Position numbers and translations under genes: made by a program
In this document: positions 48,240-58,745 of the stretch, piece after piece
How positions within the stretch are numbered: position 1 is the first letter of the stretch
How the letters are laid out: each line of letters begins with the position of its first letter
NCBI RefSeq assembly: GCF_000020485.1
Contig: NC_011899.1
Location: forward strand, 345,501-409,500
Direction: 5' to 3'
Source: Halothermothrix orenii H 168
GTDB lineage: Bacteria; Bacillota; Halanaerobiia; Halanaerobiales; Halothermotrichaceae
DNA: 64,000 nt
Notes under the pieces: model-generated
Told to the model about the DNA's origin: nothing
What the model saw: only the letters and a program-made list of their open reading frames with translations
Database searches by the model: none

Positions 48240-48989
48240 GTGGAAGAAAAGAATAATAAAATTTCCAGGAAACAGTTTTTAACAACTGTCGGCGGTCTGG
48301 CGGCCGGAGCTGTTCTGGCAGGTTCGGGTTTGAGTCTCCTTGATTCTGAGGTAAAGGCTGAAAAATTACCTGAATACCCATGGACAAAATACTTTGCTAA
48401 AAAATTAAATGTTGAAACTGTCAGGAAAAAGGCTACCCAGTACTATCATGAAGGTAATCATTGTGCCGAAGCTTCCTTCAGGGCCCTGGTTGAAGAGCTG
48501 GGGGCACCCTTTAGTAATGTGCCTTCCCAGGTTTTATGGTTCGGAGCAGGCGGGGGAGCCGGCTGGGCTACCCTGTGTGGGGCAGTAAACGGAGGCTCTG
48601 CAGCAATATCCCTTGTTTATGGCAGAAGCAAAATCACCATGGCGTTAGTAAATGAACTATTTGGCTGGTATAGTGAAACCCCCTTACCCCTTAATAGTGA
48701 GGTAAATAGTGTAGCTGGTACCCCATTATGCCATTCTTCTGTGAGTAACTGGTGTGAGGCATCAGGATTAAAGGCAGATTCTAAAAAGAGATCAAAAAGA
48801 TGTGGCCTGTTAACTGGCGATACAACAGCGAAGGCAGCAGAACTGCTCAATGCCCAGCTGGCAGGTAAATTTGTTGCTACATATACAATCCCTAAAGAAG
48901 CCCAGGAATGTATGAACTGTCATGTTGCCGGTGATTTAAAAGATACCAGGGGTAAGATGGACTGCCTGGATTGCCATGAGGGACACTAA
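48240..48989 (+). CDS. Split-Soret-type cytochrome c with Tat-like signal
   Basis: Protein of 249 residues. The N-terminus KISRKQFLTTVGGLAAGAVLAG is Tat-like but has Arg-Lys in place of Arg-Arg. The body matches the split-Soret cytochrome/C_GCAxxG_C_C family (NHCAEASFRAL, WATLCGAVNGG, HSSVSNWC), and the end has two heme motifs, CMNCH and CLDCH. Members are dimeric periplasmic cytochromes, described in Desulfovibrio. It is the only c-type cytochrome in the window and lies between tatC and tatA after the ccm operon, so those genes probably serve it. GTG follows GGAGGTGTAGAGTA. The 277-base gap upstream has no supportable gene. Confidence 0.87.
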   Translation: MEEKNNKISRKQFLTTVGGLAAGAVLAGSGLSLLDSEVKAEKLPEYPWTKYFAKKLNVETVRKKATQYYHEGNHCAEASFRALVEELGAPFSNVPSQVLWFGAGGGAGWATLCGAVNGGSAAISLVYGRSKITMALVNELFGWYSETPLPLNSEVNSVAGTPLCHSSVSNWCEASGLKADSKKRSKRCGLLTGDTTAKAAELLNAQLAGKFVATYTIPKEAQECMNCHVAGDLKDTRGKMDCLDCHEGH

Positions 48990-49462: not shown

Positions 49463-50169
49463 ATGGAATATTTCAGGGTATTTTGGCAGGGTTCAGTTGG
49501 TTTTTTCGCAATTCTATTTCTGGCAAGAATAAGTGGAAAACAACAGATTGCCCAGTTGACCTTCCTTGATTATATCGTAGCCATTACAGCTGGGTCAATT
49601 GCCAGTTCTTTAACAATTATCGCTGTTAATGATTTTGGACCAACTTTAGTGGGCCTGTTAACCTGGTTTTTCTGGAGCCTGGTTATTGGCTTTATATCCA
49701 TGAAATCAAGACTGCTCAATAAAATATTTCATGGAACCCCAACTGTTGTCATCCAGAATGGAAAAATTTTAGAAAAAACATAAGTAAGTTGCCTAATTAT
49801 CAGATAGAAGATTTGAGAGCTCAGCTGCGGGACAAGGGTATATTCAGGATGGCTGATGTGGAATTTGCTATTTTAGAAACAAGTGGCCAACTGAGTGTTC
49901 TTAAAAAATCACAACAACAACCTGTAACCAGGAATGATCTTAATTTACAGACAAATTATGAGGGTCTATCCAGAAAGATTATTTTTGAAGGTAAAATTAT
50001 GAAGGATAAGTTAAGGGAACTCAATTTAACAGAGAAATGGTTGAAGGATGAACTAAAAAAACAGGGTATTACCGATATAAAGGATGTTATGTATGCCGCC
50101 CTTGATACCCAGGGTAATTTATTTGTAGACAAATATCATGATGAAACCGATAATATAAAAGACTTTTAA
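49463..50169 (+). pseudogene. DUF421 membrane protein split by a one-base frameshift
   Basis: 49463-49783 encodes three TM helices and the YetF/DUF421 core (LARISGKQQIAQLTFLDYIVAITAGSIAS, TPTVVIQNGKILEK) and stops; 49789-50169 goes on with PNYQIEDLRAQLRDKG, ADVEFAILETSGQLSV, the normal continuation. Adding one A to the six-A run at 49773-49778 joins them seamlessly (EKNISKLPNYQIEDL). Family members are membrane proteins of unknown role linked to spore and envelope stress. Either a real frameshift, slippage expression or a sequence error. Confidence 0.85.
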
Positions 50170-50190: not shown

Positions 50191-50661
50191 TCAAATATGT
50201 GGAGATAATTTTTCTTCGATGATTTTTTTTACTTTCATTACAGCCTTTTGTACTGATTTTGAAAGTTTAGTACCTAAAGTTATTCTTTCTGGCTCAATTC
50301 CATAGATAGTAATTTTATGCGGATAGCCTGTCATTGATTGACCCATTTTTATAACATCAAAAAGGGAAAACCCATGGAGATCAGGGTTGGTGGATTTTTT
50401 TAAGTCATCCAGACAGAGTCTATAGATTGTGCCTGGACTTTTACCTCCATATATAGCATCTATAGCTATTACCTCTTTGGAAAGGCTTATTTCTTTCAGA
50501 TAGTTTATAGGTGCAGTACCGGCATCAATTAAGGATACATCTGGTGGTATTTTTTTTGACTCCAATTCCTTAATTAAATGAATTCCGACCCCATCATCCC
50601 CCATAATATAATTACCCACCCCAACAATAATAATTTGATATTTACACTTATTTCCTCCCAT
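50191..50661 (-). CDS. Hydrogenase maturation endopeptidase (HyaD/HybD/HycI family)
   Basis: Protein of about 156 residues with the M52 pattern: IIVGVGNYIMGDDGVGIHLIKEL, SLIDAGTAPINYL, VIAIDAIYGGKSPGTIYRL and DLHGFSLFDVIKM, which together supply the nickel-sensing acidic residues and His. It cuts the C-terminal peptide after the CxxCxxH motif of the large subunit once nickel is inserted. It is divergent from the hydrogenase genes. ATG at 50661 has no clear ribosome site; an in-frame TTG at 50679 is the alternative. Confidence 0.88.
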   Translation of the reverse strand: MGGNKCKYQIIIVGVGNYIMGDDGVGIHLIKELESKKIPPDVSLIDAGTAPINYLKEISLSKEVIAIDAIYGGKSPGTIYRLCLDDLKKSTNPDLHGFSLFDVIKMGQSMTGYPHKITIYGIEPERITLGTKLSKSVQKAVMKVKKIIEEKLSPHI

Positions 50662-50712
50662 ATTATCATTAGTATGCAAGTTAAAGCATAATATAACTTA
50701 CAAAGGAATTAA

Positions 50713-51732
50713 ATGAGGTGTATTATTGTGAAGAAAAAAGACTATGTTAATCTCTGTCGTTCTTTAAAGACTGAGGGGAGTCATCAATTATCAAGAGAAA
50801 TTTTAAGAGTGGTCAGGGACTTTCGGAGTAACAATGGCAAAAAATTACCTGTTATCTGGATTGAAACCAACGATAGTGGTGATAATAATATTTCTTTTAT
50901 GAACACAACCTATCCCTATCTTGATCAGGTTTTTGAAGATATTATAGATCTTTATTATAGTAATACCTTTATGGCAGCCCAGGGAGAGGATGCCTATCAA
51001 ATATTAAAAAAAGTGGCTTTACGCGAAAAAAGAGAGTTTACCCTTGTTGTTGAGGGGGCTATTCCTCTGAAAGCAAACGGTCGGTATAATATTACCTTTA
51101 TTACTGATGAAGGTCCGGTAACAGCAGTTGAGTTAGTAAGATGGCTTGGAGAGCTGGCAAAATATGCAGTGGCGGTAGGAACCTGTGCCAGTTTTGGTGG
51201 AGCATCAGCAGCCTCTCCAAATATTACCGGTAGTGTAGCTCTTGGAGATGTATTAGACCGGCAAATAATAAATGTAAGTGGTTGCCCCATAAACCCTGAT
51301 TGGTTTGTTGGTACACTGGCTCATCTACAGATGTACGGTCTACCGGATCTGGATAGACTGGGGAGGCCTGAACTTTTTTATCAGTTTACTGTTCACCGTC
51401 ATTGCCAACGGCGTTCCTATTTTGATGATGGAAATTTCGCTGAAGAGCTGGGAGACATTGAATGTATGTTCAGTCAGGGTTGTGTGGGCCCCAGAACAGG
51501 TGCTGACTGTCCTTACCGTTTATGGGATAATCATGTTAGTTATCCTATCAAAGTTAATACACCCTGTATAGGTTGTACTAATGAAGATTTCCCCGATGGG
51601 TCTTCACCGTTTTTTGTCCCCTTACCCTTGAAAAGGCAAGAAGATGAAGAAGTAACCCCTGGAAGGGATGGGGATAAGATAAATGGGTTTAAAGATAGTA
51701 AAGATACCTGTGGGGATGATACTGATGGTTAA
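50713..51732 (+). CDS. [NiFe] hydrogenase small subunit, proximal-cluster variant
   Basis: Iron-sulfur subunit of about 339 residues resembling group 1 small subunits: LVVEGAIPLKANG, VAVGTCASFGGASAASPN, SGCPINPDWFVGTLAHL; distal-cluster HRHCQRR, CMFSQGC; medial-cluster DCPYRLW and TPCIGCT. Odd points: the first proximal motif, normally DCTGC, reads NDSGDN (Ser55 and Asn58 where Cys is expected), and the N-terminus has no twin-arginine signal or TM helix. The C-terminal 30 residues are charged and low-complexity. Start could also be GTG at 50728 after GAGGTG. The stop overlaps the large-subunit start by eight bases. Confidence 0.88.
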   Translation: MRCIIVKKKDYVNLCRSLKTEGSHQLSREILRVVRDFRSNNGKKLPVIWIETNDSGDNNISFMNTTYPYLDQVFEDIIDLYYSNTFMAAQGEDAYQILKKVALREKREFTLVVEGAIPLKANGRYNITFITDEGPVTAVELVRWLGELAKYAVAVGTCASFGGASAASPNITGSVALGDVLDRQIINVSGCPINPDWFVGTLAHLQMYGLPDLDRLGRPELFYQFTVHRHCQRRSYFDDGNFAEELGDIECMFSQGCVGPRTGADCPYRLWDNHVSYPIKVNTPCIGCTNEDFPDGSSPFFVPLPLKRQEDEEVTPGRDGDKINGFKDSKDTCGDDTDG

Positions 51733-53137
51733 AAAAATTACATTTAGTCCGGTAACAAGGTTAAGTGGACTTTTGTCAGTTGAAATTGTTGTTGATAGAG
51801 GGAAAATAGTGAATGCCCGTACAAGAGGAACCATGTTCAGAGGTTATGAGTGGATTATGCGAGGAAGAAAGGTAACAGATGCTGTTTATATGACCCAGAG
51901 GATCTGTGGTATTTGTTCCCTGGCCCATGGGGCTGTTGGAAGTTATTTGCTTGATGAACTTTATGGGAATATCATATCTGAAAATGCTCAGTATCTAAGA
52001 AATATTATGTTTGCGGCAGATTTTTTACAAAACCATATCAGGCATTTTTATTTTTTTGGCCTTCCCGATTTTGTTAAAATGCCTGAAAAACCACCTTTTC
52101 TGGGGCAGGACCTTAATGACCTTCGTTTAAATAGGGAAGACAATCGACGACTGGTTGATAATTATTACAAGGCTGTTAAAGCAGCTCAGGAAAGTCATCA
52201 GTTACTGGCCCTGTTTGGTGGCAAGATACCGAACCAGCATAGTTTTGTCCACGGAGGGGTAACGGTAGCCCCGACCGCTGACAAGATTAACCAGGCAAAA
52301 GCTCTAATTGAAAGTATTCAACAATTTGTTCAGGGGTGTATGATACCGGATACTGAATTAATTTCCCGGGCTTACAGGGATTATTTTCAGATCGGTGTTA
52401 CCCCTCTTCGACTAATATCTTTTGGTCTTTTTCCTTTTGGTCCACAAAATGACGATTATTTATGGCCCCCCGGTGTCATTATCAATAATGAATTTGAGCT
52501 ACCTCAGGTAGAATTTATTGAAGAACAGGTACCTTACTCCTATTATGAGGCGAATGATGAAGGCGAAAATGTATTCAATCAATACCCGGAACCTGCTCCC
52601 TTTAAACCAGAAGCCTATAGTTATATAAAAACTGTTCTGTATAAAGGCCAACACTTTGAAACAGGGCCATATGCCAGGGGAGTTATCCGTGGAGATTATA
52701 GGGGAAGGGCTTCGACCATGGATAGAATTGTGGCCCGTTCCCTGGAGGCATTGAAGCTGGCTGGTTTTATCAGGGAATGGTTGACCAGACTGGAACCTGG
52801 ACCTCCACCTTTAAATCAAAATGAAGAACCGGTTAAAGATAGGGCTGTGGCTACTACTGGAGCTATGCGGGGAGCCCTTCTACACAGTGCTATAATCGAA
52901 GGTGAAGAAGTAAAAAGTTATAATGTCATCACCCCAACCACCTGGAATTTCTCACCGAGGGATAAAAATGGGAATCCTGGTCCGGTAGAAAGGGCCTTAA
53001 TTGGTACTGAAATTCCCGGGGGAGCAATGTTGGAGACCATTGTTGGCAGGATAATTCGGTCCTTTGATCCCTGTATATCCTGTGGTACCCATGTCTATAG
53101 TATTGACGGTAAATTGCAGAAGAAAATAGAATTTTGA
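51725..53137 (+). CDS. [NiFe] hydrogenase large subunit
   Basis: Catalytic subunit of 470 residues. The nickel ligands are in L1 RICGICSLAHG (near residue 60) and L2 DPCISCGTH; 14 residues remain after that His (VYSIDGKLQKKIEF) and would be cut by the M52 protease encoded at 50191. FSPVTRLSGLLSVEI and THSFVHGG-like NQHSFVHGGVTVAPT fit group 1 enzymes. It oxidises or makes H2 with the small subunit. ATG at 51725 is eight bases after GGGGATG; longer reading starts inside the small-subunit gene. No membrane cytochrome b gene follows. Confidence 0.95.
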   Translation: MVKKITFSPVTRLSGLLSVEIVVDRGKIVNARTRGTMFRGYEWIMRGRKVTDAVYMTQRICGICSLAHGAVGSYLLDELYGNIISENAQYLRNIMFAADFLQNHIRHFYFFGLPDFVKMPEKPPFLGQDLNDLRLNREDNRRLVDNYYKAVKAAQESHQLLALFGGKIPNQHSFVHGGVTVAPTADKINQAKALIESIQQFVQGCMIPDTELISRAYRDYFQIGVTPLRLISFGLFPFGPQNDDYLWPPGVIINNEFELPQVEFIEEQVPYSYYEANDEGENVFNQYPEPAPFKPEAYSYIKTVLYKGQHFETGPYARGVIRGDYRGRASTMDRIVARSLEALKLAGFIREWLTRLEPGPPPLNQNEEPVKDRAVATTGAMRGALLHSAIIEGEEVKSYNVITPTTWNFSPRDKNGNPGPVERALIGTEIPGGAMLETIVGRIIRSFDPCISCGTHVYSIDGKLQKKIEF

Positions 53138-53151
53138 AAGTAGTGGTTAAA

Positions 53152-53508
53152 TTGCATGAAATGTCTGTCATGGGGGAGATTTTTTCAATAATAAACAGTA
53201 ATGTAGCTAAATACAGACTTAAAAGAGTAACAAAAGTAGTGGTCAGAGTTGGGGAAATGACCTGCCTTAATGATGAAGCACTGGATTTTGCTTTTCAGGT
53301 ATTTGCTGAGGATACCGTAGCTGAAGGAGCCGAACTTATTATTAATAAAGAAAAAGCCAGGGCAAGATGCCATCACTGTGGTCATATTTTTGAAATAACC
53401 TATACTGATAAGTTATGCCCCCATTGTCAAAGTTACAGTGATAATATTGTAAATGGGTATGAATTATATCTTGATAAAGTGGAGGGGGAGATAGATGAAA
53501 ACGATTAA
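53152..53508 (+). CDS. hypA: Hydrogenase nickel chaperone HypA
   Basis: Protein of 118 residues. It begins with (M)HEMSVM when read from TTG at 53152, which places the essential nickel-binding His at position 2; a longer start at 53134 would bury it. The zinc site CHHCGHIFE..CPHC is in the C-terminal half. HypA passes nickel to the large subunit together with HypB. No clear ribosome site precedes this start; coupling to the large-subunit stop 15 bases upstream is likely. Overlaps hypB by 14 bases. Confidence 0.9.
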   Translation: MHEMSVMGEIFSIINSNVAKYRLKRVTKVVVRVGEMTCLNDEALDFAFQVFAEDTVAEGAELIINKEKARARCHHCGHIFEITYTDKLCPHCQSYSDNIVNGYELYLDKVEGEIDEND

Positions 53509-54142
53509 AATAAATAAAAAAATCCTGAGCAAAAATGAAGAAAAGGCTACAGAAATCAGGGCATATCTTAATGAGAAAAAGGTCAGGATGTTAAATCTGG
53601 TGGGGTCACCGGGGGCCGGAAAAACAACTATTTTAGAAAAAATAATTGAAAAGTTTGATAACACAAGGAAGATTGTTGTTATTGAAGGAGATTTATATAC
53701 TACCAGAGATGCTGAAAGATTAAAAAAATATGAAATACAGGTTGTTCAAATTAATACAATGGGTGCCTGTCACCTGGAAGCTGGTATGGTCTGGCAGGCC
53801 TTAAAAGAAGTAAATCTGGAAGAAATTGATTTTCTAATTATAGAAAATGTCGGTAATCTAGTTTGTACCGCTTCCTATGATCTAGGAGAGAATATCAGAG
53901 CTACTGTGCTTAGTGTACCGGAGGGGAATGATAAACTTCTTAAATATCCTGTTATCTTTCAAAGAGCAGATTTAATAATAATAAATAAAATAGATTTATT
54001 ACCCTATACTGATTTTTCCTTAGAAGAAATTGAAAAAGACTTAAAGCAAATTAACAAAAATGCCCCGGTTTTTAAATTGTCAGGGAAGACAGGAGCAGGT
54101 CTGGATAAGCTATGTTTTTTTCTGGAGGAAAATCTTACATGA
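53495..54142 (+). CDS. hypB: Hydrogenase nickel-incorporation GTPase HypB
   Basis: GTPase of 215 residues: P-loop GSPGAGKTT at about 40-48, VVIEGDLYTTRDAERL as switch, metal-binding MGACHLEAGMV, IIENVGNLVCTASYDLGE, and NKIDLLPY for guanine recognition. No His-rich nickel-storage stretch and no N-terminal CxxC(GC) site, so it is a minimal HypB. It delivers nickel with HypA. ATG after GGAGGGGGAGATAG. Confidence 0.94.
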   Translation: MKTIKINKKILSKNEEKATEIRAYLNEKKVRMLNLVGSPGAGKTTILEKIIEKFDNTRKIVVIEGDLYTTRDAERLKKYEIQVVQINTMGACHLEAGMVWQALKEVNLEEIDFLIIENVGNLVCTASYDLGENIRATVLSVPEGNDKLLKYPVIFQRADLIIINKIDLLPYTDFSLEEIEKDLKQINKNAPVFKLSGKTGAGLDKLCFFLEENLT

Positions 54143-56394
54143 AAAAGAGGCGGTTACAATTAGAAATAGAAGGTATTGTTCAGGGGGTGGGTTTCAGGCC
54201 TTTTATCTATCGTCTTGCCAGGGAAAATAATCTTAATGGGTGGGTTCTGAACACCAGTGGGGGTGTTTTAGTTGAAGTTGAAGGTAATCAAAAGACCCTT
54301 GAGATGTTTATCAGACAAATTGATGAGGAGTCACCCCCACTGGCCCAGATTACTACTATCAAATCTAGAGAAGTCTCTGTTAGAGAAGACAGTAGTTTTG
54401 TCATTAAGGATAGCAGGAAAACATATTATACGCAAGTACAGCTTCCTCCTGATATTGCCATTTGTAATGATTGTCTCCATGATATAATGGACCCTACCAA
54501 CAGGCGCTATCGTTATCCCTTTACAAGTTGTGTTAACTGTGGTCCCCGTTTTAAGATTATCAAATCCCTCCCCTATGACCGCCCCCGGACTACAATGAAG
54601 AAATTTAAAATGTGTCCTGAATGTAATACTGAATACAATAATCCTCTGGATAGAAGGTTTCATGCCCAACCCAACGCTTGCCCACTATGTGGGCCCCAGC
54701 TCTGGCTAAAAAAAATGAGTGGGGAAAAGTGCCTTACCCGGGACCCCATAGGTCTTACCATTGACCTGCTTAAAAAGGGAAACATAATAGCCATTAAGGG
54801 CATTGGTGGATTTCACCTTATGTGTGATGCTACCGAAAGTGATGTGATAGCAAATCTCAGGACGAGGAAGAGGAGACCAGATAAACCCCTGGCGTTGATG
54901 ATGAATAAACTGACTACTGTTAGAAAATATTGCAATGTTGGTAGTATGGAAGAGGAAATATTAACAGGGATAAGGCGTCCCATTGTCTTACTTGATAAAA
55001 AAGGGGAGAAGTTACCCCGTAATATTGCTCCTGGAATTAGATACTATGGTGTTATGTTGCCATATACCCCCCTGCATTATTTGTTGTTCGATAAAGGTAT
55101 AGAGGTTTTAATTGCTACCAGTGGAAACGTCAGTGGTAACCCCCTGGAATACCAAAATGGAGGTGTTTTTGAAAACTTAAAAGGTATTGCTGATTATGTT
55201 CTTGGGCATAACAGGGAGATATATGTTCCTGTAGATGATTCAGTCGTAAGGGTTGTTGGTGGTAAAAAGAGAGTGATAAGACGGGCCAGGGGTTACGTTC
55301 CCCAACCTCTCATGGTCGGGGGCCTTGACAATGGTCTGGCGTTGGGGGGTGACCAGAAAAATACCTTCTGTTTTGCCAGAAATAAGTATGCCTTTATAAG
55401 CCAGTATCTAGGGGATTTAGGGAATATCGATAACTATAATAATTTTAAATTAATGATAGATCATTTTAAGGAGTTATATAAAATAAAACCAGATTTTGTT
55501 GTCCATGACCTCCATCCGGATTATCAAACGACCTATTATGCTAGTTTTTACGGGGATAAGATAGGTGTCCAGCACCATCATGCCCATATAGCCAGTTGTA
55601 TGGCTGAAAATAACATAGACGAAAAAGTAATTGGTCTTGCTTTTGATGGAACAGGTCTGGGAAATGATGGTAATATATGGGGTGGTGAATTCTTAATTTG
55701 TGATTTTAAAGATTTTAAAAGGGGTGGCCATTTAAATTATATGAAAATGCCCGGGGGTGATATGGCAATAAAGGAACCCTGGCGTCTGGCGGTTAGCTAT
55801 CTTAATCGCTTAAGGTATGATAAAGCTGATATTATAAACCTGTTGAGGATAGATGAAGTGGAGGCAGACATAATTCTGAAAATGCTCAATAAGGGTTTCA
55901 ATTGTCCGGAAACATCAAGTATGGGTCGACTCTTTGATACTGTTGCCGCTTTAATAGGCTTGCGAAAAAGGATAACCTATCAGGCTCAGGCAGCCCTTGA
56001 ACTGGAATCAATTGCAGATAATAATACAGAAGAGATATATCATGTTAGTATCGAGGAAAAGGGTCAAAAATATGTTGTTAATACCGACCCGATGATGGGG
56101 GGTATTATCAGTGACCATAAAAAGGGTGTTAAAAGATCGATTATTTCATCTAAATTTCATAATACAGTTATTGCATTTACCCTGGAAATGTGCAGGCTAA
56201 TCAGGCATAAATACGGTATTAACAGTGTTGCTTTGAGTGGTGGAGTCTTTCAAAATAAATTATTATTAGAGATGTTATGTGCTGGATTGAAGGAACAAAA
56301 TTTTAAAGTATATTCACAGGCAAAAATACCCTGCAATGATAGCGGGTTATCCCTGGGACAATTGGCTATAGCCAGTAACCGGAGAAAGGATTAG
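54139..56394 (+). CDS. hypF: Carbamoyltransferase HypF
   Basis: Protein of 751 residues that makes the CN ligands of the active-site iron from carbamoyl phosphate. Domains in order: acylphosphatase (QGVGFRPFIYRLA, about 12-85), two zinc fingers (CNDCLHD..CVNCGPR and CPECNTEYN..CPLCGP), a YrdC-like domain (IAIKGIGGFHLMCDATE), and a Kae1-like carbamoyltransferase domain (VVHDLHPDYQTTYYA, HHHAHIASCMAEN). ATG at 54139 is nine bases after GGAGG and overlaps the hypB stop. Confidence 0.95.
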   Translation: MKKRRLQLEIEGIVQGVGFRPFIYRLARENNLNGWVLNTSGGVLVEVEGNQKTLEMFIRQIDEESPPLAQITTIKSREVSVREDSSFVIKDSRKTYYTQVQLPPDIAICNDCLHDIMDPTNRRYRYPFTSCVNCGPRFKIIKSLPYDRPRTTMKKFKMCPECNTEYNNPLDRRFHAQPNACPLCGPQLWLKKMSGEKCLTRDPIGLTIDLLKKGNIIAIKGIGGFHLMCDATESDVIANLRTRKRRPDKPLALMMNKLTTVRKYCNVGSMEEEILTGIRRPIVLLDKKGEKLPRNIAPGIRYYGVMLPYTPLHYLLFDKGIEVLIATSGNVSGNPLEYQNGGVFENLKGIADYVLGHNREIYVPVDDSVVRVVGGKKRVIRRARGYVPQPLMVGGLDNGLALGGDQKNTFCFARNKYAFISQYLGDLGNIDNYNNFKLMIDHFKELYKIKPDFVVHDLHPDYQTTYYASFYGDKIGVQHHHAHIASCMAENNIDEKVIGLAFDGTGLGNDGNIWGGEFLICDFKDFKRGGHLNYMKMPGGDMAIKEPWRLAVSYLNRLRYDKADIINLLRIDEVEADIILKMLNKGFNCPETSSMGRLFDTVAALIGLRKRITYQAQAALELESIADNNTEEIYHVSIEEKGQKYVVNTDPMMGGIISDHKKGVKRSIISSKFHNTVIAFTLEMCRLIRHKYGINSVALSGGVFQNKLLLEMLCAGLKEQNFKVYSQAKIPCNDSGLSLGQLAIASNRRKD

Positions 56395-56400
56395 TGACCA

Positions 56401-56616
56401 ATGTGTATTGGTGTACCTGTAAAGATTATCAAAAAAAGAGAGTCACTGGCCCTGGCTGAACTGAATGGTGTAAAGAAAGAGATAAATATTGACCTTGTGC
56501 CTGAAGTTAAACCAGGTGATTATGTTTTATTACATGCCGGGTGTGCTATTCAGGTAGTGAATAAAAAAGAGGCAATAAGAACTTTAAAATTATTGAAAGA
56601 ACTAAGCCAGGGGTAA
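56401..56616 (+). CDS. hypC: Hydrogenase assembly chaperone HypC
   Basis: 71 residues beginning MCIGVPVKI, with the essential Cys2, and PGDYVLLHAGCAIQVV later, as in HypC/HybG. It holds the Fe(CN)2CO unit with HypD. Six bases after the hypF stop. Confidence 0.94.
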   Translation: MCIGVPVKIIKKRESLALAELNGVKKEINIDLVPEVKPGDYVLLHAGCAIQVVNKKEAIRTLKLLKELSQG

Positions 56617-56638
56617 TTACAGGGGAAGGTTGATTTCA

Positions 56639-57736
56639 ATGAAATGTGTTGATGAGTTGTCAGATAGGAAAATAATCAGCGGAATAGTCAGTAAAATTAA
56701 GGCAATTAAACTATCGGGAAAAGTAAAAATTATGGAAGTATGTGGGACTCATACTATGTCAATTTTTAAAAACGGGATTAAAAGTTTATTACCAGACAGT
56801 ATTGAATTAATATCAGGTCCTGGTTGCCCTGTATGTGTAACCCCTGATATATATATTGACAAGGCCCTGGCCCTGGCAAAAAAAGAGAATGTAATTATTA
56901 CTACTTTTGCTGATCTTTTAAGGGTTCCAGGGTCTTCTGGAACACTGCAGGAAATGAGAGTTAACAGAAAAAATATAACTACAGTTTATTCTCCCCTTGA
57001 AGCTGTAAAGATTGCATATAATAACCCCGGGCAGGAGGTTATTTTTCTGGCTATTGGTTTTGAAACTACCATACCTGCTATTGCACTAAGTATTATAAAA
57101 GCCAACCAACTGGGACTCAATAATTTTTCTATCTTACAATCACTTAAAATAATGCCTCCAGTATTACAGGAACTGGTTTTAGATAAAGATTTAGATGTAG
57201 ATGGTTTTATTTTACCTGGGCATGTAAGTACAATTTCTGGTTTGCAGCCCTTTGAGTTTTTAGCCAGGGATTACCATGTTCCCGGGGTAGTGGCAGGTTT
57301 TGAGCCAGGTGATATTATTTTGTCAATATATACTCTGTGTAAAATGTTAAAAGATAATGATATCAGGGTAAAAAATCTGTATCCCAGGCTGGTAAGGCTT
57401 GAGGGAAACAAAAAAGCACAGGAGCTTATTAAAGAAATTTTTACACCAGTGGATAGTTACTGGCGTGGTCTGGGTACCATTACAGGCTCTGGATTGAAAC
57501 TCAGGAAAGTTTATCATAGATATTCTGCCGAAAAAAAGTTTCAGTTTGGGGATACTCAATATAGGCCTGGAAAAGGGTGTATCTGTGGAGAAATATTAAA
57601 AGGCAAACAGAAACCAACTGACTGCAGATTGTTCGGCATCAAATGTACCCCGATGAAACCAGAAGGGCCGTGTATGGTTTCCCGGGAAGGGACCTGTGCT
57701 GCATATTATCGATATCGGGGGAAGGTGAATTTATAA
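56639..57736 (+). CDS. hypD: Hydrogenase assembly protein HypD
   Basis: Protein of 365 residues. The active-site motifs are all visible: EVCGTHTMSIFK, SGPGCPVCVTP, FLAIGFETTIPA, and the C-terminal [4Fe-4S] cysteines in GCICGEILKG..DCRLFGIKCTP..GPCMVSREGTCAAY. It builds the iron-cyanide-CO unit on HypC. ATG at 56639 is nine bases after GGGGAAGG; an in-frame TTG at 56630 abuts that site. Between hypC and hypE in one operon. Confidence 0.94.
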   Translation: MKCVDELSDRKIISGIVSKIKAIKLSGKVKIMEVCGTHTMSIFKNGIKSLLPDSIELISGPGCPVCVTPDIYIDKALALAKKENVIITTFADLLRVPGSSGTLQEMRVNRKNITTVYSPLEAVKIAYNNPGQEVIFLAIGFETTIPAIALSIIKANQLGLNNFSILQSLKIMPPVLQELVLDKDLDVDGFILPGHVSTISGLQPFEFLARDYHVPGVVAGFEPGDIILSIYTLCKMLKDNDIRVKNLYPRLVRLEGNKKAQELIKEIFTPVDSYWRGLGTITGSGLKLRKVYHRYSAEKKFQFGDTQYRPGKGCICGEILKGKQKPTDCRLFGIKCTPMKPEGPCMVSREGTCAAYYRYRGKVNL

Positions 57737-57740
57737 AAAA

Positions 57741-58745
57741 ATGAATACTATATCCCTGGCCCATGGTAATGGCGGTAAAATGATGGAAGATTTGATAGAT
57801 AATCTTTTTTTGAAATATTTAAATAATGATATTATTAATAAAAAGGATGATGCTTCTCCTGTACCTGAAATCAAAGGAGTACCAGTAATTTCAACAGATA
57901 CCTTTGTAGTTGATCCCATTTTCTTTCCAGGTGGTAATATAGGAAAATTATCTATATGTGGTACAGTAAATGATCTGGCTGTCACGGGTGCTATTCCCCT
58001 TTATTTGACAGTGGGGTTTATCCTGGAAGAGGGACTTCCCATAAAACACCTGGAAAAAATAATAATTTCTATGGCTGAAGTTAGCAGGGAAGCAAATGTT
58101 AAAATTGTGGCTGGCGATACTAAAGTAGTTGAACGGGGAAAAGGTGATAAAATTTTTATTAATACAACCGGAGTCGGAATGATAGGCGATAAACTAAAGC
58201 TTTCTGATGAAAATATTAAATTAGGGGATAAAGTTATCATTAATGGTTCCATAGCTGAACATGGTCTGGCAATTTTAATGGAACGGAACCAGATGGACTT
58301 CAGTACATCTATAAAAAGTGATTGTTGTACTCTGTCAGACCTCATTGTAACATTATTATCTGAAACTAATGGGATTAAATTTATGCGAGATCCTACCCGT
58401 GGAGGGATGGCTACAGTCCTGAATGAAATTGCAACCAGGTATAATGTTGGCATTGAAATTGAGGAAGAAAAAGTTCCGTTGGGGGATGAAATAAAGAGTC
58501 TTTGTAAGATACTGGGTCTGGATCCATTATATCTGGCCAATGAAGGAAAGGTATTAATTATTGCTGACAGAGAAAAAAGTGAAAAGATTGTAGATATAAT
58601 GAGAAGGCACCCTTATGGTCGAAATTCATCTATAATCGGGACTATTGTAGATAATAATGATCAGCAAGTGTACCTCAAAACAAGAATCGGGGGAAAAAGA
58701 ATAATTACAAAATTAATGCATGATATGCTACCTAGAATATGCTAG
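57741..58745 (+). CDS. hypE: Hydrogenase cyanide-forming protein HypE
   Basis: Protein of 334 residues, AIR-synthase-like: SLAHGNGGKMMEDLI, STDTFVVDPIFFPGGNIGKLSICGTVNDLAVTGA (ATP loop), and a flexible end closing in LPRIC, whose Cys is carbamoylated by HypF and dehydrated to thiocyanate. The SelD-like fold is expected; no Sec/Cys loop of SelD is present. Four bases after the hypD stop; last gene of the operon. No terminator is obvious after it. Confidence 0.94.
   Translation: MNTISLAHGNGGKMMEDLIDNLFLKYLNNDIINKKDDASPVPEIKGVPVISTDTFVVDPIFFPGGNIGKLSICGTVNDLAVTGAIPLYLTVGFILEEGLPIKHLEKIIISMAEVSREANVKIVAGDTKVVERGKGDKIFINTTGVGMIGDKLKLSDENIKLGDKVIINGSIAEHGLAILMERNQMDFSTSIKSDCCTLSDLIVTLLSETNGIKFMRDPTRGGMATVLNEIATRYNVGIEIEEEKVPLGDEIKSLCKILGLDPLYLANEGKVLIIADREKSEKIVDIMRRHPYGRNSSIIGTIVDNNDQQVYLKTRIGGKRIITKLMHDMLPRIC

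Follow-up and report, generated by a model that had tools for sequence, protein, structure and literature searches.

Can a [NiFe] hydrogenase work when its small subunit has lost two of the four cysteines that hold the proximal cluster, and what then occupies the site? The question is raised by Hore_03850/03860 of Halothermothrix orenii H 168, located in a 64,000-nucleotide stretch of contig NC_011899.1 (positions 345,501 to 409,500), referred to as the window. The proximal cluster governs electron supply and oxygen behaviour of [NiFe] hydrogenases. Genome annotation labels such genes as fully functional hydrogenases; for H. orenii, PMC2626281 presents the two genes and the following hypA-F as a nickel-iron hydrogenase cluster "suggesting a fully functional hydrogenase", a label to be read as putative. 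The features considered below are as follows (window coordinates).

50191-50679, minus strand: hydrogenase maturation endopeptidase of the HycI/HupD type, divergent and upstream of HydA (family models)
50713-51732, plus strand: [NiFe] hydrogenase small subunit HydA (Hore_03850), 339 aa (open reading frame, family models, structure relatives)
50869-50886, plus strand: NDSGDN motif in place of CxxC, the source of two proximal-cluster ligands (Asp54 at 50872-50874, Asp57 at 50881-50883)
51184-51186, plus strand: Cys158, retained proximal ligand (GTC), invariant
51283-51285, plus strand: Cys191, retained proximal ligand (SGC), invariant
51394-51576, plus strand: distal His228/Cys231/Cys251/Cys257 and medial Cys266/Cys285/Cys288 ligands, all retained (alignment)
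51725-53137, plus strand: [NiFe] hydrogenase large subunit HydB (Hore_03860), RICGIC and DPCISC intact, C-terminal extension after DPCISCGTH
53149-53508, plus strand: HypA (family model)
53495-54142, plus strand: HypB (sequence, shared cluster, published hypA-F annotation)
54112-56394, plus strand: HypF (sequence, shared cluster, published annotation)
56401-56616, plus strand: HypC (published annotation and sequence analysis)
56630-57736, plus strand: HypD (sequence, published annotation)
57741-58745, plus strand: HypE (sequence, published annotation)

HydA carries WIETNDSGDNNISFMN at the site where group 1 [NiFe] hydrogenases have CxxC. The motif residues, N53-D54-S55-G56-D57-N58, are encoded by aac gat agt ggt gat aat, and the reading frame runs through without interruption, as a first-pass annotation of the sequence had stated. 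The central observation of that annotation is borne out by open reading frame, alignment and family alike: the two proximal CxxC cysteines are confirmed to be gone from the H. orenii small subunit. Cys158 and Cys191 alone remain of the four-Cys proximal set of group 1, while the distal His/Cys3 and medial Cys3 sets are complete. The protein scores 213.5 bits against the HydA model TIGR00391 (cut-off 179.5) and lies over the cut-offs of Pfam PF14720 and PF01058.

A scan of GTDB species genomes provided 22 relatives, and further ones came from searches of 710 genomes. The 61 close homologues (about 60-71% identity) stem from diverse Bacillota, some being one genome held in two collections; L034 (59% identity) falls outside the clade named here after its DSGD motif. 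Not one of the 61 has both cysteines. Position 54 is Asp in 57 of them, Gly in two (L015 and its duplicate L125) and Cys in two (L027, L056), position 57 is Asp in 61 of 61, and DSGD was found in three additional homologues. As the pattern DSGD[N/D]N is retained across the family, the motif is not a product of chance. Cys158, Cys191 and the seven distal/medial ligands are invariant in 30 aligned family members, and the two proximal cysteines occur without exception in 51-52 aligned sequences. Family alignments of the small and large subunits revealed no conserved replacement cysteine. The small-subunit dN/dS of 0.07-0.19 (close pairs), combined with the invariance of Cys158 and Cys191, indicates that the altered proximal site is maintained. 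The double loss is a lineage trait and not peculiar to H. orenii. A sequencing error or pseudogene in H. orenii, in whose favour there is nothing beyond the oddity of the motif itself, can be dismissed with near certainty: the frame is open, the family is under purifying selection and the homologues with Asp54 come from many independent assemblies. The first-pass annotation had named two findings that would refute it, homologues with Cys at both positions and an alternative alignment relocating the missing cysteines, and neither was found. Selenocysteine at the motif was rejected, the in-frame stops of some small-subunit matches lying in the tail or being isolated breaks.

The named hosts of the family (Desulfotomaculum, Pelotomaculum, Sporomusa malonica, Syntrophaceticus schinkii, Thermacetogenium and Desulfotruncus) are all anaerobes, which lends little weight to the oxygen-related role that had been proposed for the altered site. 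About 26 of 113 genomes of the class of genome G383 hold a family member. Conversely, none of 37 relatives from H. orenii's own order gave a match at E 0.001, which suggests that H. orenii acquired HydA laterally. A literature search conducted largely outside subscription journals returned no published account of the DSGD clade or of the double Cys loss.

The wider relationships of the family show how the motif may have arisen. In a broad range of group 1 small subunits from Bacillota, the first Cys is retained and the second is replaced by Asp or Asn (ACSGDS, TCTGD, TCTGN, GCSGN). In a tree computed without the motif columns, with a group 1h pair chosen as outgroup, the DSGD family forms a single clade (88/94) nested in the ACSGDS group (100/98), which in turn lies in the CxGD/N group (100/99). 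The group 1h pair is set apart from the DSGD family by a long branch (100/100). The change looks stepwise, with the second Cys replaced by Asp/Asn in a broad Bacillota clade and the first Cys lost afterwards in the DSGD family; the double loss is the second stage of a trend that spans Bacillota more widely. At least four changes are required at position 54. With the other 45 family rows constrained to one clade, the AU test gave p 0.145 and did not separate a retained (ancestral) from a regained Cys54 in L027/L056.

The large subunit satisfies PF00374, and its gene overlaps slightly with that of HydA (51725 versus 51732). Wherever complete in the family, the large subunits retain the four NiFe cysteines (RxCGxC, DPCxxC), RGxE and the C-terminal extension; beyond the four NiFe ligands, no conserved Cys was found in the family. 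The large-subunit segment GGKIPNQHSF (residues 165-178) has Asn at the position of the His that lies beside the proximal cluster in other enzymes; the same residue is Asn in L001-L003, L111 and L133, Glu in L025 and His in most of the family. Among other group 1-like large subunits, those of L098 and L102 lack both the first Ni-ligand pair (QRTSGLDFVSH, QRTSGADFVSH) and a terminal DPCxxC; they adjoin a Tat-type CNGC small subunit and are a probable non-hydrogenase paralogue. In one genome (L060, L062 and L063; G441 C7:265889-268833), group 1 small-subunit genes form a tandem array of three, each with a CSGC motif and a Tat-like N-terminus.

Downstream of HydB, the maturation genes follow in the order hypA, B, F, C, D, E. 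Across the family, no conserved neighbour or redox-partner gene was found besides the protease and hyp genes. In the Syntrophaceticus/Thermacetogenium group, an FdhD-like gene lies just upstream of the hydrogenase in L016, L017, L019, L020 and L021, and an FmdE-like gene likewise in the same loci except L021; these labels were assigned by sequence reading, and a link to formate metabolism is possible. Elsewhere in the window, a YetF/DUF421 gene is spread over two frames (49463-49783 YetF_N, 49789-50169 DUF421) by an apparent frameshift, being a single open reading frame in the L001 relative. A split-Soret cytochrome c-like protein with a Tat-like N-terminus is encoded at 48240-48989 (NF047622, 157 bits, below the cut-off of 400), near apparent cytochrome c biogenesis and tatC genes; H. 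orenii is described as a fermenter.

The N-termini of the family keep the FxxLC of a Tat signal. By eye, the hydrophobic stretch is gone in all members and the RR in H. orenii and most others. Judged from these remnants, a former Tat signal has eroded at the N-terminus, and HydAB is probably a cytoplasmic dimer, the missing signal pointing to that location. The H. orenii genome contains one [NiFe] hydrogenase only, along with eight matches to the [FeFe]-hydrogenase catalytic domain. These matches rule out the [NiFe] enzyme as sole hydrogenase, and H2 turnover of the host consequently does not depend on HydAB. Among about 47 distinct family loci, 8 have a broken large-subunit frame, versus 0 of about 55 outgroup loci (Fisher p 0.0014), as counted by eye after removal of duplicates and with draft-sequence errors as a possible contribution. 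The breaks (L006, L009, L010, L016, L017, L021, L028, L056) are stops or frameshifts at differing places, and the accompanying small subunits are nearly all intact. In L016 (S. schinkii) the gene is broken by a single additional base and apart from that shares 90% DNA identity with the intact gene of its near relative L019. Broken large subunits hint that some hosts can do without HydAB. The cytoplasmic hydrogenase SSCH_370002-6 of S. schinkii (PMC5113046) was not matched to L016, and its expression data were set aside.

Which residues replace the cysteines depends on the register of the loop. The first-pass annotation had placed NDSGDN on the two ligand positions and named Asp54, Asp57 or Asn58 as possible unusual ligands. 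No Cys occurs at the two positions in either register, but in the ungapped alignment Asp54 and Asp57 fall one residue before the Cys columns, which are occupied by Ser55 and Asn58. If this register is the true one, the site could hold a [3Fe-4S] or Ser-ligated cluster, and Asp54 and Asp57 would help to form the site without binding iron. MAFFT indeed places no gap; the second position is D or N in outgroups, and Asp at 58 in L015 fits that alternation. The following helix begins at Trp+8 in AF2 models of both the H. orenii protein and a CTGC relative, which favours the same register, though both models were made from ungapped alignments. Conversely, SGD as in the ACSGD outgroup is found one residue leftward in all family members but one, and L027 (NCSGDNN) and L056 (NCSCDNN) have Cys at 54 and never at 55, although Ser to Cys is a single base change. 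On these two grounds we lean towards a loop shifted by one residue, in which Asp54 and Asp57 occupy the Cys positions. The invariance of Asp57 also speaks against the ungapped register, and a Ser55/Asn58 site is considered unlikely.

Somewhat more probable, though still improbable overall, is that the proximal cluster is absent altogether, so that the NiFe site has no electrical connection to the medial and distal clusters. The protein would then be no normal redox hydrogenase; it might sense H2 or catalyse H/D exchange poorly, or its gene might be decaying. Absence of the cluster would agree with the family-wide loss of two of four ligands, with the substitution of the conserved His beside the proximal site in H. 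orenii and several relatives, with the excess of broken large subunits and with the eight [FeFe] domain matches of the host. However, some of the breaks may be draft-sequence errors, and Cys158 and Cys191, which would drift without a bound cofactor, are as invariant as the medial and distal ligands, at low dN/dS. Moreover, group 2b sensor enzymes are generally said to lack a cleaved C-terminal peptide, whereas H. orenii has both the extension and the protease. Hence, of the earlier proposal that the cluster is altered or absent, alteration is a sound inference and complete absence the less likely part. Far more remote is a four-Cys cluster completed by a cysteine from elsewhere, be it N-terminal Cys15, a residue of HydB or one of a different protein. 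Most members conserve Cys15, but as a remnant of the Tat signal, and it is missing in L005, L017 and L020, all of which have Asp54; the large subunit conserves its four NiFe cysteines only, and there is no conserved partner gene.

The reading we prefer, with a probability of about 0.5, is that HydAB works as a hydrogenase and binds its proximal cluster through two cysteines plus oxygen ligands supplied by the NDSGDN loop, an arrangement that arose stepwise. The distance from the NiFe site to the medial cluster is too long for fast electron transfer without a relay, so that the enzyme is redox-silent unless a cofactor occupies the proximal position. The sequence data themselves establish the motif with its conservation, the retained cluster and NiFe ligands, the nested placement and purifying selection. 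What we infer for the preferred reading (a bound cluster with its type and potential, the catalytic direction, the partner and the location) can be outlined as follows. HydAB would be an active [NiFe] hydrogenase of the group 1 type, probably made up of two subunits and located in the cytoplasm, with a proximal cluster bound by Cys158, Cys191 and loop oxygen ligands, most probably Asp57 and next Asp54. Of the residues named in the first-pass annotation, Asp57 is the best candidate, being invariant and having precedent in the single Asp at the second position of AHO/Huc-type enzymes and Frh; Asn58 belongs to the ungapped rival. At the altered site, the first electron acceptor may differ in nuclearity or in potential, which by analogy would be raised, and H2 oxidation would then be favoured, with electrons passing to a soluble partner not encoded nearby.

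More tentatively, and with clearly less than even confidence, the family may represent a natural Cys2Asp2 proximal cluster (or a non-cubane cofactor), reached from Cys4 through Cys3Asp and with recurrent Gly/Cys at the same position. We know of no wild-type [4Fe-4S] electron-relay cluster with a two-Cys/two-Asp ligand set. A natural series of Cys4, Cys3Asp, Cys2Asp2 and sporadic Gly/Cys, with otherwise intact active sites, would offer a means of probing the minimum number of cysteines in a relay cluster and how ligands tune the potential.

Among known systems, the best solved relative is the small subunit of NiFeSe hydrogenase (1cc1_S; phmmer E 7e-56), on which the AF2 model superimposes with Z 27.7 and rmsd 3.2 across 257 aligned residues at 38% identity. 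HydAB shares its fold, NiFe ligands and distal/medial pattern with the group 1 NiFeSe/NiFe uptake hydrogenases (Desulfomicrobium baculatum 1cc1, D. vulgaris), but has DSGD for their CTGC and, by eye, lacks a recognisable Tat signal of the kind that marks membrane/periplasmic group 1 types. Unlike in NiFeSe hydrogenases, the first residue of the C-terminal CxxC is Cys (DPCISC) and not Sec, and Pro278 takes the position of their extra, fourth medial Cys, so that the medial site of HydA should be of the usual [3Fe-4S] type. It also differs from regulatory hydrogenases (group 2b), as C-terminal extension and protease are present and no conserved sensor partner gene was found.

The closest parallels to the altered site are enzymes with a single exchanged Cys. 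Group 1h (AHO HofK and Huc, CDGD) has Asp at the second CxxC position, and the two aligned 1h references are without a Tat-like N-terminus. For AHO, an Asp-ligated [4Fe-4S] proximal cluster is reported as cited in PMC7174314, and Huc has three [3Fe-4S] clusters, the proximal one included, a type lying ~250 mV above [4Fe-4S] (PMC10017518). Still, group 1h retains the first Cys that is lost in H. orenii HydA, which thereby departs from CxGD, and it is distant (HofK 33.6% identity), placed on a separate branch of the tree and used by aerobes. In FrhG, of the F420-reducing hydrogenase (group 3a), Asp60 similarly substitutes one proximal Cys (PMC3591093), but this is a single replacement in a protein with a different medial/distal domain and an F420 partner subunit. 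The direct outgroup, the Bacillota TCTGD/TCTGN/ACSGDS small subunits, shares with HydA an oxygen or nitrogen residue at the second Cys position; unlike HydA, it retains the first Cys, and many of its members retain the Tat signal.
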